DNA from: an uncultured Roseicyclus sp.
GTDB taxonomy: Bacteria > Pseudomonadota > Alphaproteobacteria > Rhodobacterales > Rhodobacteraceae
Direction of reading: 5' to 3'
NCBI GenBank assembly: GCA_947491935.1
Contig: CANLLF010000002.1
Span: forward strand, 992,001-1,056,000
DNA: 64,000 bases
The notes beneath the pieces are model-generated. The model was not told where the DNA came from and did not search any database. It saw only the letters and a list, made by a program, of their open reading frames with translations. The stretch's first letter is position 1. The number at the start of each line of letters is the position of its first letter. The translations under genes were made by a program, and so were the position numbers. Positions 1 to 23,191 of this stretch are shown here, in pieces.

Positions 1-1293
1 CTCTGGACGTCACCGAAGCTGACCGGTGCGGTCCTGCTGATCGTGCCCCTGGTGATTGTTCCCATTGTGGTTCTGGGCCGCCGCCTGCGGGTGCTGAGCC
101 GTGAAAACCAGGACTGGATCGCGGAAAGCTCCGGCAATGCGTCCGAAGCATTGCTGGCGGCCCAGACGGTGCAGGCCTTTACCCACGAACGCCCGTCTGC
201 CACGCGGTTTGCCGATGTCACGGAACTCTCGTTTGACAGCGCCCGCAAGCGTATCGCGACGCGGGCCGTGATGACCGTGATCGTGATCACCCTCGTCTTC
301 GCGGGGATTGTCGGCGTCCTTTGGGTCGGGGCGCGGGATGTGCGCGCCGAAGCGATGTCCATCGGCGCCCTCATCCAGTTCCTGATCTATGCGATTATGG
401 TGGCCGGGTCGGTCGGTGCCTTGTCCGAGATCTGGGGCGAGCTTCAGCGCGCATCGGGGGCGACGGAACGGCTGATCGAGCTTCTGGGCGCCGACGATAA
501 TGTGGCAGATCCTGATATTGGCGAGGCTCTGCCCAATGGCGGGCGCGGCGAGATTACCTTTGATACGGTGCGCTTCCATTACCCGACCCGGCCTGAAATT
601 GCGGCGCTGGATGGGGCGAGCTTTACGGTCAAGCCCGGTGAAACCGTGGCTCTTGTCGGGCCATCCGGTGCCGGCAAGACAACCGTTTTGCAACTGCTGC
701 TCCGGTTCTACGATCCCGATAGCGGGCAGATTTCGCTCGACGGCGTTCCGTTGACCGATATGGCGCGCGATACGTTCCGGCGTGCCATTGCGCTGGTTCC
801 CCAGGATCCGGTGATTTTTGCAGCTTCGGCGCGGGAAAACATCCGTTTCGGGCGTCCGGAGGCGTCGGATGCCGAGGTTGAATTGGCCGCCAAGGCCGCC
901 GCCGCCCATGACTTCCTGGAAAAGCTGCCACAAGGATACGACACCTATGTGGGCGAACGCGGCCTGATGCTGTCGGGCGGGCAGAAGCAACGTATCGCCA
1001 TCGCCCGCGCGATCCTGCGCGACGCGCCGATCCTGCTTCTGGACGAGGCGACAAGTGCGCTGGATGCAGAAAGCGAGCGCGCGGTTCAGGAGGCGGTGGG
1101 GGAGCTTTCGAAATCCCGCACCACGCTGATCGTGGCGCACCGCCTTGCGACGGTGAAACAAGCCGACCGCATCCTTGTGTTCGAGGACGGCAAGATCGTG
1201 GCCGAGGGCACCCATGAGGCACTCGTGGCCGAAGACGGGCTCTATGCCCGGCTGGCGCGCCTGCAATTCACCGCCGGTCTCGCCGCCGAGTAG
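1..1293 (+). CDS. ABC exporter, fused permease-ATPase (5' end outside window)
   Basis: The reading frame is open from the first base, so the N-terminus lies upstream; about 430 residues are visible. The first ~155 are the end of an exporter-type transmembrane domain, with hydrophobic stretches around VIVITLVFAGIVGVLWVG and LIQFLIYAIMVAGSVGAL. The nucleotide-binding domain follows, with Walker A GPSGAGKTT, signature LSGGQKQRIAIARA, Walker B ILLLDEATSALD and the switch histidine in IVAHRLA. This is the MsbA/lipid-exporter-like half-transporter layout, which works as a dimer in the inner membrane. The substrate cannot be told from sequence. A separate promoter for the next gene is possible in the 105-bp gap that follows. 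Confidence 0.93.
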   Translation, partial: LWTSPKLTGAVLLIVPLVIVPIVVLGRRLRVLSRENQDWIAESSGNASEALLAAQTVQAFTHERPSATRFADVTELSFDSARKRIATRAVMTVIVITLVFAGIVGVLWVGARDVRAEAMSIGALIQFLIYAIMVAGSVGALSEIWGELQRASGATERLIELLGADDNVADPDIGEALPNGGRGEITFDTVRFHYPTRPEIAALDGASFTVKPGETVALVGPSGAGKTTVLQLLLRFYDPDSGQISLDGVPLTDMARDTFRRAIALVPQDPVIFAASARENIRFGRPEASDAEVELAAKAAAAHDFLEKLPQGYDTYVGERGLMLSGGQKQRIAIARAILRDAPILLLDEATSALDAESERAVQEAVGELSKSRTTLIVAHRLATVKQADRILVFEDGKIVAEGTHEALVAEDGLYARLARLQFTAGLAAE

Positions 1294-15020: not shown

Positions 15021-15179
15021 CTAGAAAAGGTCCTTAATCAGCTTCTTGCCGAGATTGATCGCAATCGGTGCCGCCGCAGAAGCCAGCGCGCCCCAGAAGG
15101 CCGGTGCGACGTTCGCGTCGAGAGCGGATCCGAGACGATCTTCGCGATCGACAGAGGGGGATTGGTACGGAAGGTTCAT
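15021..15179 (-). CDS. Small peptide B, leader shared with peptide A (candidate precursor)
   Basis: A 52-residue reading frame from ATG 15179, preceded by a strong AAGGAGA site. It begins MNLPYQSPSVDREDRLGSAL, nearly the same as the neighbouring peptide, and then diverges into a hydrophobic, Ala-rich segment with a single Trp (PAFWGALASAAAPIAINLG) and a cationic end KKLIKDLF. A conserved leader on a variable, amphipathic tail is the signature of bacteriocin or RiPP precursor families. It lies 40 bp after peptide A and before a strong terminator. I know no family name for it. The shared leader, paired ribosome-binding sites and operon position argue against a chance ORF. Confidence 0.75.
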   Translation of the reverse strand: MNLPYQSPSVDREDRLGSALDANVAPAFWGALASAAAPIAINLGKKLIKDLF

Positions 15180-15219
15180 GGAAAGTCTCCTTGATTGAAG
15201 TTGAAAAATGACCCGTGCT

Positions 15220-15420
15220 TTACAGGCCGGAAATTGCCGAAACCGCGAAGTCTTTGGCCGCGGTTTTGGCGTGAGGGGCGAGGTAGTTCATCGCGGAACC
15301 GATCCCGCCCGTCACATCGTCCCAGCTCAAGCCAAACAGAGCCGGATCGACGCCTTGCCCCATCGCCGCAGACAGACGGTTTTCGCGGTCAATGGCGGGG
15401 GATTGATAGGGGAGGTTCAT
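15220..15420 (-). CDS. Small peptide A, leader shared with peptide B (candidate precursor)
   Basis: A 66-residue reading frame from ATG 15420 with GAGAAAGGAA 6 bp upstream. It starts MNLPYQSPAIDRENRLSAAM, then continues through GLSWDDVTGGIGSAMNYL to APHAKTAAKDFAVSAISGL. The first 16 residues match peptide B at 13 positions; the rest is unrelated. The DDVTGG stretch resembles a double-glycine cleavage site, which is speculative. It lies downstream of the PatG-like protease, separated by 137 bp that include a strong hairpin. No modification enzyme of the YcaO or lanthipeptide type is nearby, so any processing would be proteolytic or oxidative. Confidence 0.75.
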   Translation of the reverse strand: MNLPYQSPAIDRENRLSAAMGQGVDPALFGLSWDDVTGGIGSAMNYLAPHAKTAAKDFAVSAISGL

Positions 15421-15491
15421 GATAATTCCTTTCTCAAATGGGATGGGCGCGGGGGCCCGGATCAACATGGGGAAATCCATGCCGTGGATGT

Positions 15492-15519
15492 GCCGCAGCC
15501 GGGTGGGGCCGGCTGTGGC
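15492..15519 (-). other. Stable hairpin between the PatG-like gene and peptide A
   Basis: Arms 15492-15502 and 15509-15519 pair over 11 positions (one G-U) around a six-base loop. There is no following U-run, so it is not a standard terminator. Its place between a protease gene and an abundant-product-type peptide gene suggests an RNA-processing or attenuation site that would raise the peptide:protease ratio. Inference only. Confidence 0.4.
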
Positions 15520-15557
15520 GCATGTCGGGCGGCACCGGGCGGGTGCCACCGCGGCGC

Positions 15558-17783
15558 TTAATACGCACGCCAGCTGCGCAGCGGGCCGAAGGTGACAGGC
15601 ATCATGCCGCTGACATCGATCGTGTAGCGGTAAAGCTTGCGCGCCTCTTCTTCGCGGCGTTGCGGATTGAAGAATTGCATCACCACATCGTAGCATTCCG
15701 ATCCGGGGCGGCTGATCGGGCTGCGTTCCACCTCGATGGCGTTCAGCTCCAGCTTGTTGGCGATCGCATCCCTGAAGACTTCTCCAACCTGGTGGGCGTT
15801 GGTCGCGGCAAAATTCATCGCGCGGTAATGTGGCTCAATGCCCTTGTTGCGCAATTCGTAGTAGATGCGATCCAGGAAATTGCGCATCGCCTCCAACTCC
15901 GCCTTTTTCGCCCGGGACCCAAGAACGGCCTTGGTCAAGGCCGCCGGATTCCACGAGAACATGCCACGCAGAACCGGGACGAGGACGGGCACGACATGGC
16001 CGTTATAAAGCCGGGTTTCCCCTTCGATATGACCGGCGATGGACACCCGGTCGACCTTGGTGGGGCAATCCACGGCATCGGATTGGGCCGTCATCAACTC
16101 TGCCGATTCCTGATCGGTATCGACAAACTTGTTCGGGTCGATGCCGGTCTGCTCGATCATGTATTGGACGAGGCGGGCGAATTCCAACACGGCGAACTGG
16201 CTTTGCGGCCGGATCGCGAAGACCGGGATGCCGTCAATCTCCAAGGTCCATTCCAGGGCGGTGGATTTGTCCATATTGGGCTGGAATCCCGACGGATCGC
16301 GATAGGCCAGGAACCGCGCCATGGAGATGGCGTTGTTGGGCATCAGCGGCTTGAGCTTCTCGTTCTGCGCAACAAGACCGTCCATCGCCTGCTGGAAGTA
16401 ATCCATGTTGGTTTCGGTCACGAAATCGTACCCGATCGTGCCAAGCGCGAAGACCTTGTCATCGGCAAGCAGGTTGGATGCGTAATGCTGCGGGCGCACG
16501 TCGTCTTGCGGGGCATGGACGAAGGTGTTGGCCGCGGGGTCCCGCACGGTGTGGCGGGGTTGGGCCGGGATCGGAGCGGCAGAGGCAGGCGCGACATCTG
16601 CGACCGCACCGGCAGGCGCAGGCGATGGGGTGGGGGCCGCCGACGTGGCGGGGGCCTCTGCCTCTGCGGCAGCGGGTTCAATATCGGCCGGAGCCAGTTG
16701 GGCGGGGTCGATATCGCCTGCGGGGGTCACGAGATCGGCGGCATGATCGGTGTCAGACATCGTAATGTTCCTTTCTGAAATGAGAGCTTGGGGAGTCACC
16801 TCTTCGGCCCGAAATGGGCCCAGATGTTCGTGTAAAAGCACGAAATCCAATCGCCGGGCGGGGCGGGGGGGCTTGACGTCTCCCGAGGGACTCGAAGGGC
16901 AGGGGACGCAAGATTGAAGCAGGATTCTTTGCAGGTCGGCGATCGGCATGTTGGGCACCAGCGCGCGGATCAGCGCGCAGAGGCCTGACACGACCGGGGC
17001 GGCGAAGCTGCTGCCGGAGATGCTGGCCTCCGCATCGTGGGAGGCATAGCGGATATCAACGCCCGGCGCATGGATCGTCTTGTTACGAAGGCCGGGCCCG
17101 AAATTGTTGAAATGGGCCGCGCAGCCCTCGGCGTTATGGGCTCCGATGGCCAGAACATGAGCCATGGCGGCCGGAACGGTGTCGGCATTCAGCCCGTCAT
17201 TGCCCACGGCCGCGACAACCTGGACGTTCCTCGAGACGCAATGCTCGATGGCATCGCGCATCTCGTCACTGGGCTGGCCAGTATTCGACAGATGCGCGCC
17301 GCTCACATTGATGATCTCGGCAGCTTGGTCGCAGGCGGCCTTGATCGCCCGGGCAAGGGTGAATTGCGAACACCCGGTTAGCCGTCCGCCGCGATCCTCG
17401 GTGAATACGGGGATCTGAAATGCGTCCGCATGTGGTGCGATGCCCGTGCTCTTGCCGACAATGATGCTGGCCACGGCGGTTCCATGCAGGGTCTTCTGCC
17501 CTGCATCGACGGGCGCCAGGGAAGGCGCATCGAGGTCTGGATGGTCGATATCCACACCACCATCCAGAACCGCGACCCTGACGCCGTTTCCGAAGCGGGC
17601 CATCGTACGAAGCGCGCGGAGGGCATCTCTTTGGGCGTCCAGATCATACATGGCAACGGGTCCGTGCGGATGGCGCAGGCAAGGGCGAACCGTCTCCGTC
17701 AGCCAGAAAGGCGCCGGAAGGTCGGCCTGCGACAGATGAGAAAGGGGGGGTGACTGCGCACGCGTACTAATAGGCGCAGCCAC
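15558..17783 (-). CDS. Subtilase fused to a cyanobactin PatG-like C-terminal domain
   Basis: 741 residues. Residues ~60-300 are an S8 subtilase: Asp74 in VAVLDGGVD, His100 in LHGTAVASI, oxyanion Asn195 in AVGND, Ser259 in GSSFAAPVVSG. A Pro/Ala-rich linker (~350-425) leads to a domain like the end of cyanobactin macrocyclase-protease PatG: ALGTIGYDF, DRVSIAGHIEGETRLYNG, VVPVLVPVLRGMFSWN, RIYYELRN, EVERSPISRPGSECYDVVM, and the closing VDVSGMMPVTFGPLRSW. No signal peptide is seen. The start is GTG 17783; ATG 17651 is possible. A second ribosome-binding site before Met342 may give a separate C-terminal protein. Its promoter should lie in the 277-bp gap to the next terminator. Confidence 0.85.
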   Translation of the reverse strand: MAAPISTRAQSPPLSHLSQADLPAPFWLTETVRPCLRHPHGPVAMYDLDAQRDALRALRTMARFGNGVRVAVLDGGVDIDHPDLDAPSLAPVDAGQKTLHGTAVASIIVGKSTGIAPHADAFQIPVFTEDRGGRLTGCSQFTLARAIKAACDQAAEIINVSGAHLSNTGQPSDEMRDAIEHCVSRNVQVVAAVGNDGLNADTVPAAMAHVLAIGAHNAEGCAAHFNNFGPGLRNKTIHAPGVDIRYASHDAEASISGSSFAAPVVSGLCALIRALVPNMPIADLQRILLQSCVPCPSSPSGDVKPPRPARRLDFVLLHEHLGPFRAEEVTPQALISERNITMSDTDHAADLVTPAGDIDPAQLAPADIEPAAAEAEAPATSAAPTPSPAPAGAVADVAPASAAPIPAQPRHTVRDPAANTFVHAPQDDVRPQHYASNLLADDKVFALGTIGYDFVTETNMDYFQQAMDGLVAQNEKLKPLMPNNAISMARFLAYRDPSGFQPNMDKSTALEWTLEIDGIPVFAIRPQSQFAVLEFARLVQYMIEQTGIDPNKFVDTDQESAELMTAQSDAVDCPTKVDRVSIAGHIEGETRLYNGHVVPVLVPVLRGMFSWNPAALTKAVLGSRAKKAELEAMRNFLDRIYYELRNKGIEPHYRAMNFAATNAHQVGEVFRDAIANKLELNAIEVERSPISRPGSECYDVVMQFFNPQRREEEARKLYRYTIDVSGMMPVTFGPLRSWRAY
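16758..16776 (-). promoter_or_regulatory. Internal ribosome-binding site and ATG inside the PatG-like gene
   Basis: On the minus strand AGAAAGGAA (16776-16768) stands 7 bp before an in-frame ATG at 16760, which would give MSDTDHAADLV and a 400-residue product holding only the linker and PatG-like domain. The same AGAAAGGAA occurs before peptide A (near 15430). The start falls exactly between the subtilase and the second domain, where a separate gene would begin. Confidence 0.5.
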
Positions 17784-18060
17784 CCGGGGAAATGCTTAGC
17801 TATGAAAAAGTCTTGCTGAAATTCGTCGTAAAGGGGTCGTGCTGAAATAAGTGGGGTCCGGTCAAAAGCGTCCGGCGGAAGGTCACAAAACAGGGTCGTC
17901 TAAAATGGTCTTGGTCGTGTGGGCGATGTCGTTGCGGGAAAATGCCCATGTTGATATCGCCTGCATTAACCCTACCGAAACCTGCTCCCGACCCAGAGTG
18001 AAAACGCCGTGAAAACGCGCGTCGATCCCGTGAAGCCTGCGCGATATGTGGAAGCGACCC

Positions 18061-18096
18061 CAAAAAAAGAGCCCCCATGGACGGATCCACGGGGGC
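18061..18096 (-). terminator. Rho-independent terminator after the large subtilase gene
   Basis: Eleven-base arms (18071-18081 and 18086-18096) pair with one wobble, and on the minus strand the stem is followed by UCUUUUUUU. It lies 30 bp after the subtilase stop. It separates the regulator-haloperoxidase-subtilase transcript from the PatG-like/peptide transcript, which must therefore have its own promoter in 17784-18060. Confidence 0.88.
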
Positions 18097-18125
18097 AGTC
18101 GGCACCTTCAGGGAGGTTCGGGAAT

Positions 18126-20276
18126 TCAGGGGCCTGGAGTTGGGTGGCTGTTTCTGGCGACCGGCGGGGCAGTTGCGGGGCCGGTGCGGGCGCCATATTG
18201 CATTTCCACATTTGGTACGGGGCTTTCCGTGGCCGGCAATGGCAATTGCGCATCGAAACCGTCCAGGAGCGGTCGGCCCGCCACCGCATTACATGCCATG
18301 AGCCGCGCCACGGATGGGGCGGCACAACTGGTTCCGATCAAGCGGGCCCGCGCGCCGGACAACACACCGATGGAGGGGATACCGGGGCGAACGGCGCTGT
18401 GGTCCGACACGGCGATCACGTCGGAATGCGCGCCCCATTGGCGCACATCGCCGCCGTTTTCGGTGCGCAGCCCGCCCGCTCCGGAATAGATCGCCGGCCG
18501 CCCGGTCTGCTGGACATATCCCGCAACCCGCGTGGTCGCGGCACTGGAGGCCACGCCGTTCAGCGCGCCATAGCCAGAGATGATGCCCAATTGCGCCGGG
18601 ATGGTCTGCGTCGGGGCCGGGGGGCGCTCGGCAGATTGCGGCGTTGCTACCCGGTTCAGGTCGACAAGATAACTCTGCCGTCCATGGGATTTCAGGTCAC
18701 TGGGGTCGTCGTCCCGCTGCAACCAGATCAAAAGGTCCTGCGCGGGGGCCAGAGGCGCGCAGGTCGCAGTGCGCGAAAGGGTGACATGCCAAAGGCCCGA
18801 TGGCGCCCGCCGTCCTTGCCCCCGTGTAAACGCCGTTGGAACCAGCGCCACCATCACGCGCCAGCGCGTGCCGCGGTGATGGTCGGCGGACATCTGGCCG
18901 ATAATCTCGCCCTCCGCTTCCAGTTCGATGAACCGGCGCGGATCCCCATCATCGCCGCCATTGGTGCCGGGATCGGCCGAGACGTCCAACTCTCCCGGCA
19001 GATCGAGGGCAACGCCGTGGGGCGGGGTCAGGGTGACGTTGTAGCCATCGGGGTCAAAGCCTTCGGGAAACCATAGCTCCAGATAGCTGGAGGTTTTGTC
19101 ATCGGGCTGCACCTGCCAGCCGATCGTGTAGGCGTCGGTATCGAAATTGGTCTCATCCAGCCGCGCATGCATCTCCGAGGCGAAATTGTTGCCCGTGGGC
19201 ATGATGATGGCCGTGTCCGGCTGAATCGCCTGACGTTCGGCCAACAGATCCTGGATCGCGATCTCCATCTCCGATTGGCCGTCATGGCGCCCTGCGCTCC
19301 ACCCGTACGAGAAGTTCAGGATCAGCGGCAGCTCATCCAACCCGCAGGCGGCGGCAATCCGGCTGGCGCGCTCGAACACATAGTGGATGGCCGAGAGCAT
19401 GTACATTTCCTTGCCGAACCCGGACGTGTCCCAGGCAATGGTATTGGGCAATTGAACCGCGATGATCTGGATTTCGTCGCCCATCGGATGATCGGGGAAG
19501 AGCGTATCGTTTCCCGCCGCCAACCCAAGGATGTGGGAGCCGTGGGTCCCGCTGCGCCTCAGGTGGTTGCCAAGCTCGGACATGCCCGCCGCGATGGCAC
19601 CGGCCCGCCGATAGAGTTCGCCCTCATCCCGGCCCAGATCGGCGCGCAACAGGTCGATGCCGGTATTCACGAATTCCCGGCCGAACGGCACGTGGGCCTC
19701 GGGCTCGGCAACGCCCGATTGCAGCCAGCAATGGCTGATCCGGGTGCGCCCCGTGCTGTCAAGAAACGCGCGATGGGCGAAAGGCAGGCCATCGTCGATG
19801 ACAGCCACAATCGCCCTGGGCGGGGTGGCGGGCGCCGTCCATGTATCTGGTGCGCTGTCCTCATGGTACACGGGCACCCAGGCGTCCGGCACAATCGGAA
19901 AATTCACCCGAAAGCGTGGATTGAACGCGGCGCGCGTGCGTTGCGCGGATCGCCGGACGGATCCCAGAAACCGCGCAATCTCCGCATCCTGGCCAATATC
20001 GGGTGTGTTGGGCGGCGGGGCGAGACTTTGGAAGGCGAAGGGCGTGATGTTCATCCGGCCCCCCGTGGGGTTCCAGAGTGGCGGCAGGCGCACCGCCATC
20101 GTGGCGTCGGATTGCGGCTCGCCCCCTTCCATCAGGGCGGTGTAAATCCCCGACGTCTCCCCGGCGATCAGGGGAAAGGAATAGGGCCGTCCAAGCTCGT
20201 TGGAAAACACCCAGCGCTCATAGGGCCCCGCATAGCGATCAATCCGTTCCTCTGGTTCGCGCTCCTGATACTTCAT
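18126..20276 (-). CDS. Large S8 subtilisin-like peptidase
   Basis: 716 residues with the complete triad: Asp161 in AVIDDG, His245 in GTHGSHILGLAAG, Ser650 in GTSCAAPSVAR. About 400 residues separate His and Ser, far more than in subtilisin, and include a beta-rich inserted region (TSSYLELWFPEGFDPDGYNV and GTRWRVMVALVPTAF) of unknown fold. The first ~150 residues are not catalytic and no signal peptide is seen, so a cytoplasmic or specialised processing role is likely. It follows the haloperoxidase-like gene by 8 bp, indicating one transcript. With the PatG-like protein it gives this cluster two proteases, as cyanobactin clusters have PatA and PatG; that parallel is inference. Confidence 0.85.
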   Translation of the reverse strand: MKYQEREPEERIDRYAGPYERWVFSNELGRPYSFPLIAGETSGIYTALMEGGEPQSDATMAVRLPPLWNPTGGRMNITPFAFQSLAPPPNTPDIGQDAEIARFLGSVRRSAQRTRAAFNPRFRVNFPIVPDAWVPVYHEDSAPDTWTAPATPPRAIVAVIDDGLPFAHRAFLDSTGRTRISHCWLQSGVAEPEAHVPFGREFVNTGIDLLRADLGRDEGELYRRAGAIAAGMSELGNHLRRSGTHGSHILGLAAGNDTLFPDHPMGDEIQIIAVQLPNTIAWDTSGFGKEMYMLSAIHYVFERASRIAAACGLDELPLILNFSYGWSAGRHDGQSEMEIAIQDLLAERQAIQPDTAIIMPTGNNFASEMHARLDETNFDTDAYTIGWQVQPDDKTSSYLELWFPEGFDPDGYNVTLTPPHGVALDLPGELDVSADPGTNGGDDGDPRRFIELEAEGEIIGQMSADHHRGTRWRVMVALVPTAFTRGQGRRAPSGLWHVTLSRTATCAPLAPAQDLLIWLQRDDDPSDLKSHGRQSYLVDLNRVATPQSAERPPAPTQTIPAQLGIISGYGALNGVASSAATTRVAGYVQQTGRPAIYSGAGGLRTENGGDVRQWGAHSDVIAVSDHSAVRPGIPSIGVLSGARARLIGTSCAAPSVARLMACNAVAGRPLLDGFDAQLPLPATESPVPNVEMQYGARTGPATAPPVARNSHPTPGP

Positions 20277-20284
20277 GACCGGCC

Positions 20285-21391
20285 TCAGACCTTCTGCGTC
20301 TCAGCCAGCGCGCGCTGCCAGATCCAGCTGAAATGCGGTGTGGCAGCGACGGGGATGGCCGCACCGACCTCAACGCCCATTGCCGCGGCGTCATTCGCGA
20401 AATCATGTTCAGTGAAGTCGTCGTTATCAGGCACGTAGCGACGGGCCTCTGCCATCGCCCCAGCCCGCCCGCACATGCCCAATATGGCCTGACCCAGGCT
20501 GGTGCCGAGCGACGCGCCCGCCCAGGTATCAATCGGGTAATGCACACCGGCCACCGTCCGGTTCACAGCAATCCGTTCGGCCAGGCCCCGCACCATCGCG
20601 GTGCGATTGGCCAGATCGGTGAAGCCGTCCCAATCCTCGATAAGCCCGCTCAGTACCGTGGCCACGGCATAGGCCTCGGTCGCGTGGGCAGAGGGGAAGC
20701 TGCCATGGCCCGGCGTCGGGATCATCGGCAGGATACGCCCGTCGATCTGATCGGGCCGCCGCACGGCCAGCGCATGTTTCAGAATCATCGCCGCATGGGC
20801 CGCGGCCACCTGCGTGGCCGTGATCAGCTCGAACGTGTCCTTGTGCTGGCCCAGATGCATGCCCAGGATCATGGCGAAATATTCGGTCGGGAAGCCGAGT
20901 TGCGAGGTAATTTCAGCCCCGCGATCGGCCCTCAGATCGGCGTAGTCATTCACAAACGCGCACTGGCTGGCCAGCAGATCGTCGCCGGGAAGCACGAGTT
21001 CAACCAGAGTCTGCCCACCGAATGTCAGCTTTGCCGATTTTTGTCCGCCCGCATCCGTTGCCTCATACCCGATCCGGGTCAGGAATTCGGAAACATAAAG
21101 GGAGCCACGCACCCACGTCGCCCACCGGTCGTTGTTCGCGGTCGTGTTGAAGGCAAGCGGCGTGCCCGCAGCGGCGGGGCCGGGCGGGGTCAGATGCGCG
21201 AGGCCCTCGGCGGTTGTCTGCAGCCCATAGGTCGTGGTGGCATCATAGCCGCCGGTATCTTCCGCACCCAGGAATGAGCCAAGCCCGGTGAAGCCGCCGA
21301 TGCCACCGATCCCGCCGATGCCACCAATCCCTCCAATGCCGCCGATGCCGCCAATCCCACCGATGCCGCCAATTCCGCCGTATTGTCCCAT
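20285..21391 (-). CDS. Vanadium haloperoxidase/PAP2-superfamily protein with Gly-Gly-Ile repeat
   Basis: 368 residues. The vanadate/phosphate site is complete: K-x6-RP (Lys205, Arg212-Pro213), FPSAH (Ser234, His236) and R-x5-H-x3-D (Arg278, His284, Asp288). Family members either oxidise halide with H2O2 or hydrolyse phosphate esters; PSAH instead of PSGH and the absence of membrane helices lean toward the soluble haloperoxidase side, but this cannot be settled by eye. Residues 5-31 are nine Gly-Gly-Ile repeats, which is very unusual for the family. AAGGA lies 7 bp before the ATG. It sits 27 bp after the regulator gene and 8 bp before the subtilase, so it belongs to the same operon. Confidence 0.82.
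   Translation of the reverse strand: MGQYGGIGGIGGIGGIGGIGGIGGIGGIGGIGGFTGLGSFLGAEDTGGYDATTTYGLQTTAEGLAHLTPPGPAAAGTPLAFNTTANNDRWATWVRGSLYVSEFLTRIGYEATDAGGQKSAKLTFGGQTLVELVLPGDDLLASQCAFVNDYADLRADRGAEITSQLGFPTEYFAMILGMHLGQHKDTFELITATQVAAAHAAMILKHALAVRRPDQIDGRILPMIPTPGHGSFPSAHATEAYAVATVLSGLIEDWDGFTDLANRTAMVRGLAERIAVNRTVAGVHYPIDTWAGASLGTSLGQAILGMCGRAGAMAEARRYVPDNDDFTEHDFANDAAAMGVEVGAAIPVAATPHFSWIWQRALAETQKV
21299..21379 (-). repeat. Nine tandem 9-bp units encoding (Gly-Gly-Ile)9
   Basis: Codons 5-31 of the haloperoxidase-like gene are nine 9-bp units of the type GGC-GGC-ATC with silent third-base variation, followed by a GGF variant. The silent differences show that the amino-acid pattern is held by selection and is not just a recent slippage product, although copy number may still vary between strains. 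Confidence 0.92.
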
Positions 21392-21418
21392 AGGGTGTTG
21401 TCCTTCCAGTTGGTCGCG

Positions 21419-23059
21419 TCAATTGATGCCGGCGGCCGCCAGCGCTTCGATCGCATCCCGGCCTAACCGGTAATCGGTTGCCGGGTGGCTGTTGCGGTAT
21501 TGGCCGAGGCTGAACTTTGGAAAATGCTTCTTGAGCGTGGTCGCGGCCTCGCGCGCATCCTCGGACCTGCCAAGAAAATGCAGCGCGATGATCCGCGCCC
21601 GGTGCGTCGACAGGTGCTGGTTGTTGGCCGCCAGCGAGCGGTCCGCGAAGTCCAGCGCGCTTTGGTAATTCGCATCGGCAAGATGCGCCGTGCTGGCCAG
21701 GCTGTCGTAGTAATAGCCGAATGGATCAATGGGCGAGAGGCTCCGCGCCCGCGTCGTGGCCTCCACTGCCGCAGCCCCCTGGTCGGTAAAGGCCTTCAGG
21801 GAGCCCTTCAGAAGCCAGGCGAGGCTTTCGTTCGGATTGATCTGCAAGGCGGCATCGAACCGCTGTTCGGCCACGTCCGGATCGTGGGAAAGGATCGTGT
21901 TGACGAAACCGTCGATGGTCAGCGCGAGGCTCGATTCAGGATCAATGTCGAGCGCCCGGGCGCAGCATTCCACCGCCTTCTGCCTGTCGTGGTCGCGATC
22001 CAGCGAGTAGCCCTTGATGACGTTGAGTACGTACCATTTCGCCAGCCATGTCAGCGGCTCGGCGACGCCATCCATGCGTGAGGTCGCCTCGCTCAGATAT
22101 TCCCGGCTTTTCAGGAAATCCCGCATTGTGCGGCGGTGCATCAAGGTCGCGCCGGCAATGGTCAGGTTGTGGTCGGCAATGTCGCTGAGCGCCTGCGCCT
22201 TCACATGGGCGACGGCGGAATGCGCGATGGAGCGCGCGATGGAATGGGCAATGGCGTTCAGATCCGTGTTGAGCCGGTCCAGATCGTTGCCGTCTTCGAG
22301 AAGAATCTCACGGCTCCACAGGATCTGCCCGCTTTCGGCGGCAATGAAGTCGATGTCGCAGACAATGCAATTGCCCGAACGGCGGATCGATCCGGTAGCC
22401 AGGTAATCCACCTCCAGCGTCTGCCGGATCTCGGAGACGATGACGGGCGTTTGCACCGCCGCGCGCCCGGACAGGTGCGACAGGACGCTCAACAGTTTCG
22501 AGCGCGACAGGATGCGGCACGATTGTTCGCCGATCCAATCGCCGAGCGCGCGCAGAACCGGATCATCGCCCAGATAGCTGAGCGGCAGCACGATCACCCG
22601 CGGCCGCGGCCGCCGCACGGTGCCGCCCCCGGGCGATCGGTGCAGGGCGGCGATTTGCGCGGGGTTGGAGCGGATCGAGGCGACCCAATCCTGAAAATCG
22701 GCCTGCGGTACGTTCAGGTCTTCCAGAAACCGACCGGTATTCTGGTCCCCGACAAAGCGCACATGCTCAAGGTCCAGTTCCACATCGGCATTGGTCGTGT
22801 GGAAAAACGTATCGAATTCAGCGCCGAAAATCTTGCGCAGATCCGCAAGCGCCCGGCGGAGGTTCTGGTGGCCGCTGTCATAGCCGGAATAGCCCCACAG
22901 CGTGTTTTGCAGGTAGGTCCGCGTCCGTCGCCCAAGCGGCGCCGTGGCGAGCATGCAGATCAGCGCACGATGTTTGACGCCGCGAATATCCAGCACGTCG
23001 CCGTTCTTCAAACGGACGGAACAGGTGCCGAACAGACTGATTTCAAGGCAGGTGCGCAT
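21419..23059 (-). CDS. Winged-helix regulator with TolB-like and TPR regions
   Basis: 546 residues. Residues ~5-100 form an OmpR/SARP-type winged helix (SLFGTCSVRLKNGDVLDIRG, HRALICMLA, LRRALADLRKIFG). The middle (VIVLPLSYLGDDPVLRALGD through YLATGSIRRSG) matches the TolB-like region seen in CadC/adenylate-cyclase-type regulators, and the C-terminal half is tetratricopeptide repeats (ALDIDPESSLALTIDGF, ALQINPNESLAWLLKG). I chose ATG 23059, preceded by AAGGGGAAACC, over an ATG at 23116. As first gene of the minus-strand run it probably regulates the haloperoxidase, protease and peptide genes. The signal is unknown. Confidence 0.82.
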   Translation of the reverse strand: MRTCLEISLFGTCSVRLKNGDVLDIRGVKHRALICMLATAPLGRRTRTYLQNTLWGYSGYDSGHQNLRRALADLRKIFGAEFDTFFHTTNADVELDLEHVRFVGDQNTGRFLEDLNVPQADFQDWVASIRSNPAQIAALHRSPGGGTVRRPRPRVIVLPLSYLGDDPVLRALGDWIGEQSCRILSRSKLLSVLSHLSGRAAVQTPVIVSEIRQTLEVDYLATGSIRRSGNCIVCDIDFIAAESGQILWSREILLEDGNDLDRLNTDLNAIAHSIARSIAHSAVAHVKAQALSDIADHNLTIAGATLMHRRTMRDFLKSREYLSEATSRMDGVAEPLTWLAKWYVLNVIKGYSLDRDHDRQKAVECCARALDIDPESSLALTIDGFVNTILSHDPDVAEQRFDAALQINPNESLAWLLKGSLKAFTDQGAAAVEATTRARSLSPIDPFGYYYDSLASTAHLADANYQSALDFADRSLAANNQHLSTHRARIIALHFLGRSEDAREAATTLKKHFPKFSLGQYRNSHPATDYRLGRDAIEALAAAGIN

Positions 23060-23191
23060 GAGGTTTCCCCTTACGTCAACGCTATCACCGGCACCTGAGA
23101 GCGCCAAGGCATTCACACCGATTTCACGGTCGCCCCCGCGAGGGCCGGGGGTAGCGTGATGCTATCAACAAGTGGATTGGGTAGGGATTTC

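Follow-up and report, generated by a model that had tools for sequence, protein, structure and literature searches.

A probable leader-protease peptide system with a PatA-type protease, next to a separable gene cassette, in Roseicyclus

What does a cyanobactin-type protease do beside two short peptides in an alphaproteobacterium? The question is raised by a 64,000-nt stretch of DNA (the window, to whose positions every coordinate below refers) from the 4.65 Mb, 99.99% complete genome of an uncultured Roseicyclus sp., and by the same locus in a sister Roseicyclus genome (L012/L014). All named genes lie on the minus strand in two terminator-closed units: module A holds a subtilase with a C-terminal domain of unknown function (DUF) and two precursor peptides, and module B holds a regulator, a PAP2/vanadium-haloperoxidase-like protein and a second subtilase (Table 1). 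These parts, and the two hairpins that bound the units, had been described in a first-pass annotation of the sequence and were all found again; that annotation proposed a cyanobactin-related, YcaO-independent pathway with a PatG-like subtilase and an oxidative (halogenating) step. In our view module A is likely to be a minimal leader-protease system with linear peptide products, and module B a separate cassette. The pairing of tag and protease itself recurs in many unrelated bacteria, mostly without genes for ring-forming enzymes nearby.

As we picture it, each of the two precursors would carry a recognition box, LPxQxxx[IV]xR, at its N-terminus and then a cleavage motif whose last letter is residue 27; the adjoining PatA-type subtilase would cut after this GVDPA or NVAPA motif and release linear amphipathic peptides of ~39 and ~25 residues, and neither heterocyclisation nor macrocyclisation would be expected. 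The DUF, borne by the protease and probably also free, would serve the precursor side in leader docking, as a scaffold or in product handling, and module B would be a separate cassette that accompanies module A in some alphaproteobacteria.

The subtilase half of the protease resembles PatA

The module A protease matches the Peptidase_S8 (8.6e-30), PatG_D (8e-17) and PatG_C (7.5e-36) profiles and narrowly passes TIGR03895, the model for PatA/PatG maturation proteases (425.2 against a cut-off of 421.05 bits). Compared with solved chains, its S8 half matched 3zxx (1.7e-38), which we take to be PatA, and the N-terminal cyanobactin protease 4h6w (1.1e-35), aligned lengthwise, and matched the PatG macrocyclase 4h6x more weakly (1.7e-20); the C-terminal half matched the PatG C-terminal chain 4uvq (8.3e-36). 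The catalytic residues D74, H100 and S259 are invariant across 28 aligned sequences. The insertion of the PatG macrocyclase sits between the catalytic D and H, and a D74-H100 spacing of 26 (33-38 in the relatives that the spacing pattern could measure, 29 in one) therefore leaves no room for it. Structure prediction gave two confident halves joined by a linker whose predicted local distance difference test (pLDDT) score is under 50. Judged by these comparisons, the subtilase half is PatA-like and not PatG-like.

To a macrocyclising PatA/PatG-like pathway with a halogenating step we give almost no credence. The PatG_D and PatG_C domains of the protease and the vanadate-site residues of the PAP2 protein would fit it, but the S8 domain is of PatA type with the short D-H spacing, the genome holds a single PatG_C gene, also of PatA type, no C-terminal follower or recognition motif was seen in the window peptides by inspection, and module B is separable, as set out below. 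PatA and PatG have the DUF in common (PMC4259220), and the presence of a DUF is therefore no sign of macrocyclisation. A YcaO search of the Roseicyclus genome gave no match. Because neither YcaO nor the macrocyclase insertion was found, leader removal to linear products is the most likely outcome. Of the first-pass annotation, the name "PatG-like subtilase" fits the C-terminal domains and not the subtilase half, the macrocyclisation is not supported, and the cyanobactin-related, YcaO-independent character of the peptide system is supported.

Two precursor peptides with a leader box and a predicted cleavage site

Both window peptides combine the leader box with the GVDPA or NVAPA site and a tail that looks amphipathic, and purifying selection acts on both. 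Between the window and the sister species (L012) they differ at 3 and 9 codons, all 12 synonymous; between two Roseibium species the synonymous differences number 30 and 19 and the non-synonymous ones 5 and 9. Because the codon differences are mainly or all synonymous, we regard the peptides as real genes rather than chance open reading frames (ORFs).

The PatA cleavage consensus is given as G(L/V)E(A/P)S in the review PMC10885120. Among 125 distinct peptides that carry the box in the relatives described below, G[VLI]x[PA][SAD] is present in 41, against 4.8 ± 2.0 in 500 shuffles (maximum 11), and its occurrences cluster mostly 21-24 residues in; Streptomyces peptides carry GVEAD or GVEAS, among other forms. 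From this enrichment, the consensus and the GVEAD/GVEAS relatives we predict a cut after residue 27 in both window peptides, which would yield cores of 39 and 25 residues, and it is probably the neighbouring protease that cuts the leaders off. In a helical-moment test the window cores gave p values of 0.048 and 0.029 and five other cores 0.001 to 0.125; amphipathicity of the cores is suggestive only. Two-peptide amphipathic bacteriocins likewise pair two short amphipathic cores, with a double-glycine leader, whereas no such leader was seen in the window peptides by inspection.

Box peptides accompany the protease across bacteria

Window-type peptides, sought with a profile built from 16 peptides (with no more than 23 candidates scored in each genome at family level), were found in 2 of 13 genus genomes and 1 of 295 sampled family genomes, and a PatG_C protease was present in exactly those genomes and in no others of the two samples. 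The co-occurrence that the first-pass annotation had proposed as a check is thus borne out, and leader peptides without the protease, which it had named as a contrary case, were not seen in these samples. At class level PatG_C occurs in 2 of 385 sampled genomes, our own included, and in the second (G539, with the peptides of L066) two peptides again adjoin the protease.

A nine-row DUF alignment scanned against one genome per species gave 322 related stretches, of which the best 79 were analysed, a set hence biased towards the window type. Taxa as filed, many of them metagenome-assembled genomes (MAGs), include Alpha- and Gammaproteobacteria, Acidobacteria, Planctomycetes, Bacteroidetes, Cyanobacteria and others. 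A peptide with the box, in the form M-x-LP-x-Q-x-x-P-V-x-R or near variants, lies within 4 kb downstream on the same strand in 67 of the 79 loci at a position-specific scoring matrix (PSSM) score of at least 10. With this matrix, which was trained on the downstream zone itself, small ORFs at or above the threshold number 126 of 1517 in that zone, 17 of 4859 elsewhere on the same strand (a number of which are clearly box peptides as well) and 8 of 7184 on the other strand. A fixed expression for the box, composed after such peptides had been seen, matched 48 of 1517 in the zone and 2 of 1522 on its opposite strand, with 3 of 4859 and 0 of 5662 elsewhere on the same and opposite strands, respectively. 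Each of six plasmid loci that had not been used for training (L006-L011) has at least one box peptide, those of L006-L008 and L011 being already known before the test. Across the 125 distinct peptides P4 is conserved in 124, R12 in 116 and Q6 in 107.

The cores are far more varied than the box. They run from amphipathic (window, Dickeya, Vibrio) through Cys-rich (82 of 125 peptides have at least four Cys beyond residue 20) and include one Kunitz/BPTI domain (2.6e-15), the core of a small box-bearing protein at L057:14467-14799 (plus strand). A recurrent type found in several phyla has a GLGD or similar segment followed by GFK/GFD-(P/S)-C-x-x-C-x-x-R...LN (L058:3605-3799, L067:11230-11451, L050:4671-4862, L073:11795-12022). 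The PatB-family proteins of three cyanobacterial loci (L074, L084, L092) show the box form at their start and score over the TIGR04220 cut-off in 3 of 3, and the PatB model matched 3 of 30 sampled peptides, two of these weakly and over the box region only; as PatB/AcyB/McaB-family proteins start with the box, PatB may be substrate-like itself.

The small proteins might also be taken to regulate or inhibit the neighbouring protease and not to be its substrates, the box then being an inhibitory or targeting segment. The Kunitz-type domain of the L057 protein and the box on PatB-family proteins, whose role is not known, would suit such a function, but highly diverse cores behind an N-terminally fixed box, with the motif at a fixed position where present, are the usual pattern of leader and core, and a box variant also opens the cyanobactin-type precursors of L076, L084 and L092. 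We see only a slim chance that this reading is right.

Ring-forming genes are sparse around the box peptides. A cyanobactin-type YcaO query, which remote YcaOs could escape, detected YcaO in 4 of the 79 stretches (L075 weakly, L076, L084 and L092) and in none of the other 75, some of them short at contig ends; anywhere in the genome, YcaO was found in 38 of the 78 genomes that hold the 79 loci and not in 40. A scan of 77 of 144 candidate neighbour ORFs (those left out being mainly opposite-strand or very long) sorted into 67 families; YcaO is absent from the 25 most frequent, and AraC-type regulators (7 of 77) are the commonest neighbours. No relatives were found among viral contigs. It is a tentative and rather doubtful extension that LPxQ-box peptides with a PatA-type protease form an old, phylum-spanning class from which cyanobactins were derived by adding YcaO and a macrocyclase, with the DUF as a leader-box adaptor that is also made free from a conserved internal start.

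The DUF and a putative internal start

PMC4259220 describes the DUF that PatA and PatG share as a conserved element of the patellamide-like cyanobactin pathways that had been characterised by 2014, and leaves its role open. It may read the leader box, which is what the precursors most widely have in common, but we put this at clearly less than even odds.

Several observations suggest that the DUF may also be made as a free 400-residue protein. An in-frame ATG at residue 342 (window 16760), near the linker start, is preceded by the Shine-Dalgarno (SD) sequence AAAGGA, a moderate signal of -5.9 kcal/mol. In the parsable proteins (49 of 85), anti-SD pairing of -6 kcal/mol or stronger precedes 39 of 133 linker Met codons against 39 of 419 other in-frame Mets. 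Averaged across 82 of 84 proteins, pairing at the best linker site is -6.89 kcal/mol, compared with -5.29 ± 0.20 in 200 synonymous-codon shuffles (lowest -5.85; none reached the observed value); some of the chosen Mets fall inside the S8 domain, L075 has no linker Met and the other dropout is apparently L058, cut by a contig end. At the 64 sites of -5.5 kcal/mol or stronger with a recognisable core, the distance from core to ATG is spread over all three frames (39, 14 and 11), and it is therefore a nucleotide signal that is kept and not one protein motif, with one frame dominating. The signal is lacking in some cyanobacterial loci (L074, L079, L082, L084). S8 and DUF are two separate ORFs at L075:6925-10825, and a DUF-only ORF lies beside a box peptide at L025:9270-10346; at L079:9140-10831 (plus strand) a methyltransferase instead of a subtilase is fused to PatG_D/PatG_C, with box-like peptides downstream. 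All three are consistent with a free-standing DUF.

Some results weigh against the reading of module A as a leader-protease system whose DUF serves the precursors. The genes, the purifying selection, the co-occurrence, the PatA-type domain with its triad, the lack of a YcaO match and the internal SD signal are shown by the sequences, whereas we infer cleavage, its site, the linear product, the role of the DUF and product activity. The window motifs GVDPA and NVAPA are a loose fit to the PatA consensus, and in its strict form the motif is confined to the minority of box peptides counted above. The patellamide-family precursor profile TIGR03678 matches neither window peptide, and it reached E ≤ 0.1 in 5 of 30 related peptides (best 0.0083), all below its cut-off. 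Twelve of the 79 loci, some cut by contig ends, lack a downstream box peptide at the PSSM threshold; the other contrary case of the first-pass annotation, a PatG-like domain common in unrelated contexts with no small peptides nearby, could apply to this minority and not to the 67. Exporters were covered by the scan of the relatives' neighbour ORFs alone. The PatG DUF showed no binding of PatE' by nuclear magnetic resonance (PMC4259220). Finally, the partial correlation of leader with DUF given S8 is 0.25 over 63 loci (0 of 1000 permutations) and falls to 0.12 after dereplication (177 of 1000) and to 0.08 once the window-type clade is left out (153 of 1000). The signal of co-evolution between leader and DUF, which vanishes when that clade is removed, is not robust and lends this reading no support.

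Module B is separable

A further reading would make the locus one integrated pathway, with both peptides modified in addition by the second subtilase and the PAP2/haloperoxidase-like enzyme through cleavage, oxidation or halogenation. The full gene order of modules B and A does recur in the sister Roseicyclus (L012/L014), two Roseibium (L016, L017) and an alphaproteobacterial MAG (L024, where the second-subtilase frame is broken), at 57-69% identity outside the genus, and this recurrence argues for some shared use of the modules. The module B trio also stands together on plasmid stretches (L093-L097) of Microvirga, Phaeobacter, Terrarubrum, Bosea and Paraburkholderia, at identities of 32-52% for the regulator, 33-50% for the PAP2 protein and 27-45% for the subtilase, but none of these five stretches has a PatG_C motif or, at threshold, a box peptide. 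Conversely, Tateyamaria L015 has the protease and twin peptides and no module B match within its stretch, and a terminator lies between the two units. We therefore judge integration unlikely: the locus is two separable modules, and its full composition is a juxtaposition.

The PAP2 protein has a full vanadate/phosphate site (K205-x6-R212-P213, P233-S-A-H236, R278-x5-H284-x3-D288), but these residues are common to PAP2 acid phosphatases; among solved chains it comes closest to an acid phosphatase (4.7e-7, against 0.034 for a bromoperoxidase), and its predicted structure (pLDDT 39) is unusable. For these reasons halogenation by this protein would be an open, unproven guess. An oxidative step proper to the pathway, as first proposed, is not supported, given the five plasmid stretches, and the statement that no system of this composition had been described held in the literature searched, with the qualification that the set is two juxtaposed modules.

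Relation to known systems

Module A shares with cyanobactin systems a PatA-type S8 domain with the same C-terminal DUF and, in its peptides, an N-terminal box related to that of PatE-type precursors and a site loosely of the G-V-x-P-[SA] type. It differs in that no YcaO, PatG macrocyclase or C-terminal recognition motif was found and in that the host is no cyanobacterium; its leader is also without the LAELSEEAL segment that follows the box variant in the precursors of L084 and L092. YcaO cyclodehydratases are present in most, not all, cyanobactin pathways. A 2015 review states that active cyanobactin clusters always encode both A and G proteases and have been identified only in cyanobacteria (PMC4663559). 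The window has an A-type protease with DUF and neither a G-type macrocyclase protease nor YcaO; lacking the A and G pair, it is not classed as a cyanobactin cluster, and by analogy the system would work like the PatA half of a cyanobactin pathway.

"Cyanobactin" clusters have been predicted outside cyanobacteria in Dickeya (PMC6329079, PMC8386352, PMC10319131), and PMC6329079 presents its clusters as a prediction that its authors could not link to any known molecule. Dickeya L018 and L019 hold the same kind of protease and box peptide as the window, and are perhaps the antiSMASH "cyanobactin" cluster reported, though in other species and with coordinates unmatched. This suggests that such calls outside cyanobacteria may denote a simpler system of protease and box peptides. 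Beyond the Dickeya labels, we recognised no description of LPxQ-box peptides with PatA-type proteases outside cyanobacteria in the open PMC literature, a scope that excludes subscription papers and most preprints. The system strips the problem to a PatA-type protease with its DUF and leader-boxed peptides; as there is neither YcaO nor macrocyclase, the role of the DUF becomes directly testable. The box is also a searchable motif for many unstudied peptides, to judge from the 125 in 79 loci. Module B, for its part, is like the stand-alone plasmid cassettes of regulator, PAP2 and S8 protein in gene order and families, and those cassettes are unlike the locus in having no PatG_C motif or box peptide.

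Layout of the locus and minor features

Table 1. Features of the two modules (window positions unless stated; energies in kcal/mol)
Feature	Position	Strand	Details
Module B	18126-23116	-	Regulator, PAP2/haloperoxidase-like protein, second subtilase
Regulator (module B)	21419-23116	-	Alternative ATG at 23059 possible
PAP2/vanadium-haloperoxidase-like protein (module B)	20285-21391	-	PAP2 1.6e-12
Second subtilase (module B)	18126-20276	-	716 aa
Intrinsic terminator between modules B and A	18096-18071	-	-22.9, z -5.5
Module A		-	PatA-type protease (15558-17783) and two precursor peptides
PatA-type protease (module A)	15558-17783	-	741 aa
Protease domains	residues 65-292; 327-440; 443-738		S8; linker, predicted disordered; PatG_D/PatG_C DUF
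Internal Shine-Dalgarno	16769-16774	-	AAAGGA, in frame, upstream of residue-342 ATG
Predicted free linker+DUF product	15558-16760	-	400 aa, begins MSDTDHAAD; would start at the internal SD/ATG
Precursor peptide 1	15220-15420	-	66 aa; leader 15420-15340 (MNLPYQSPAIDR...GVDPA); predicted core 39 aa
Precursor peptide 2	15021-15179	-	52 aa; leader 15179-15099 (MNLPYQSPSVDR...NVAPA); predicted core 25 aa (FWGALASAAAPIAINLGKKLIKDLF)
Intrinsic terminator 3' of peptide 2	14946-14911	-	-31.4, z -6.6

A terminator pattern scan listed the hairpin between the modules and not the one 3' of peptide 2. No clear island step was seen in the GC profile across 8-30 kb of the window, and the only hits of the four large proteins to defence-system profiles were a generic subtilase profile and another at E 0.053.

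The second subtilase matches Peptidase_S8 weakly (0.0025, under the Pfam cut-off), its best solved chain is a germination-related subtilase (3.2e-5), and D162, H245 and S650 are invariant in an eight-row alignment. The regulator has C-terminal TPR matches in profile searches, is winged-helix/SARP-like at its N-terminus by inspection only, and matches a HilA/EilA-type model at E 1.3e-9, far under that model's cut-off; a Streptomyces BTAD regulator (E 0.064 over 31 residues) was not taken as a homologue. In L024 a second DUF gene and two more box peptides (L024:20-1835) lie some 2 kb upstream of the complete set of six genes. The module B PAP2 proteins of the window and L093-L096 carry species-specific short tandem repeats near the N-terminus (GIG, GLG, GSF, NSF), that of the window being GIG.

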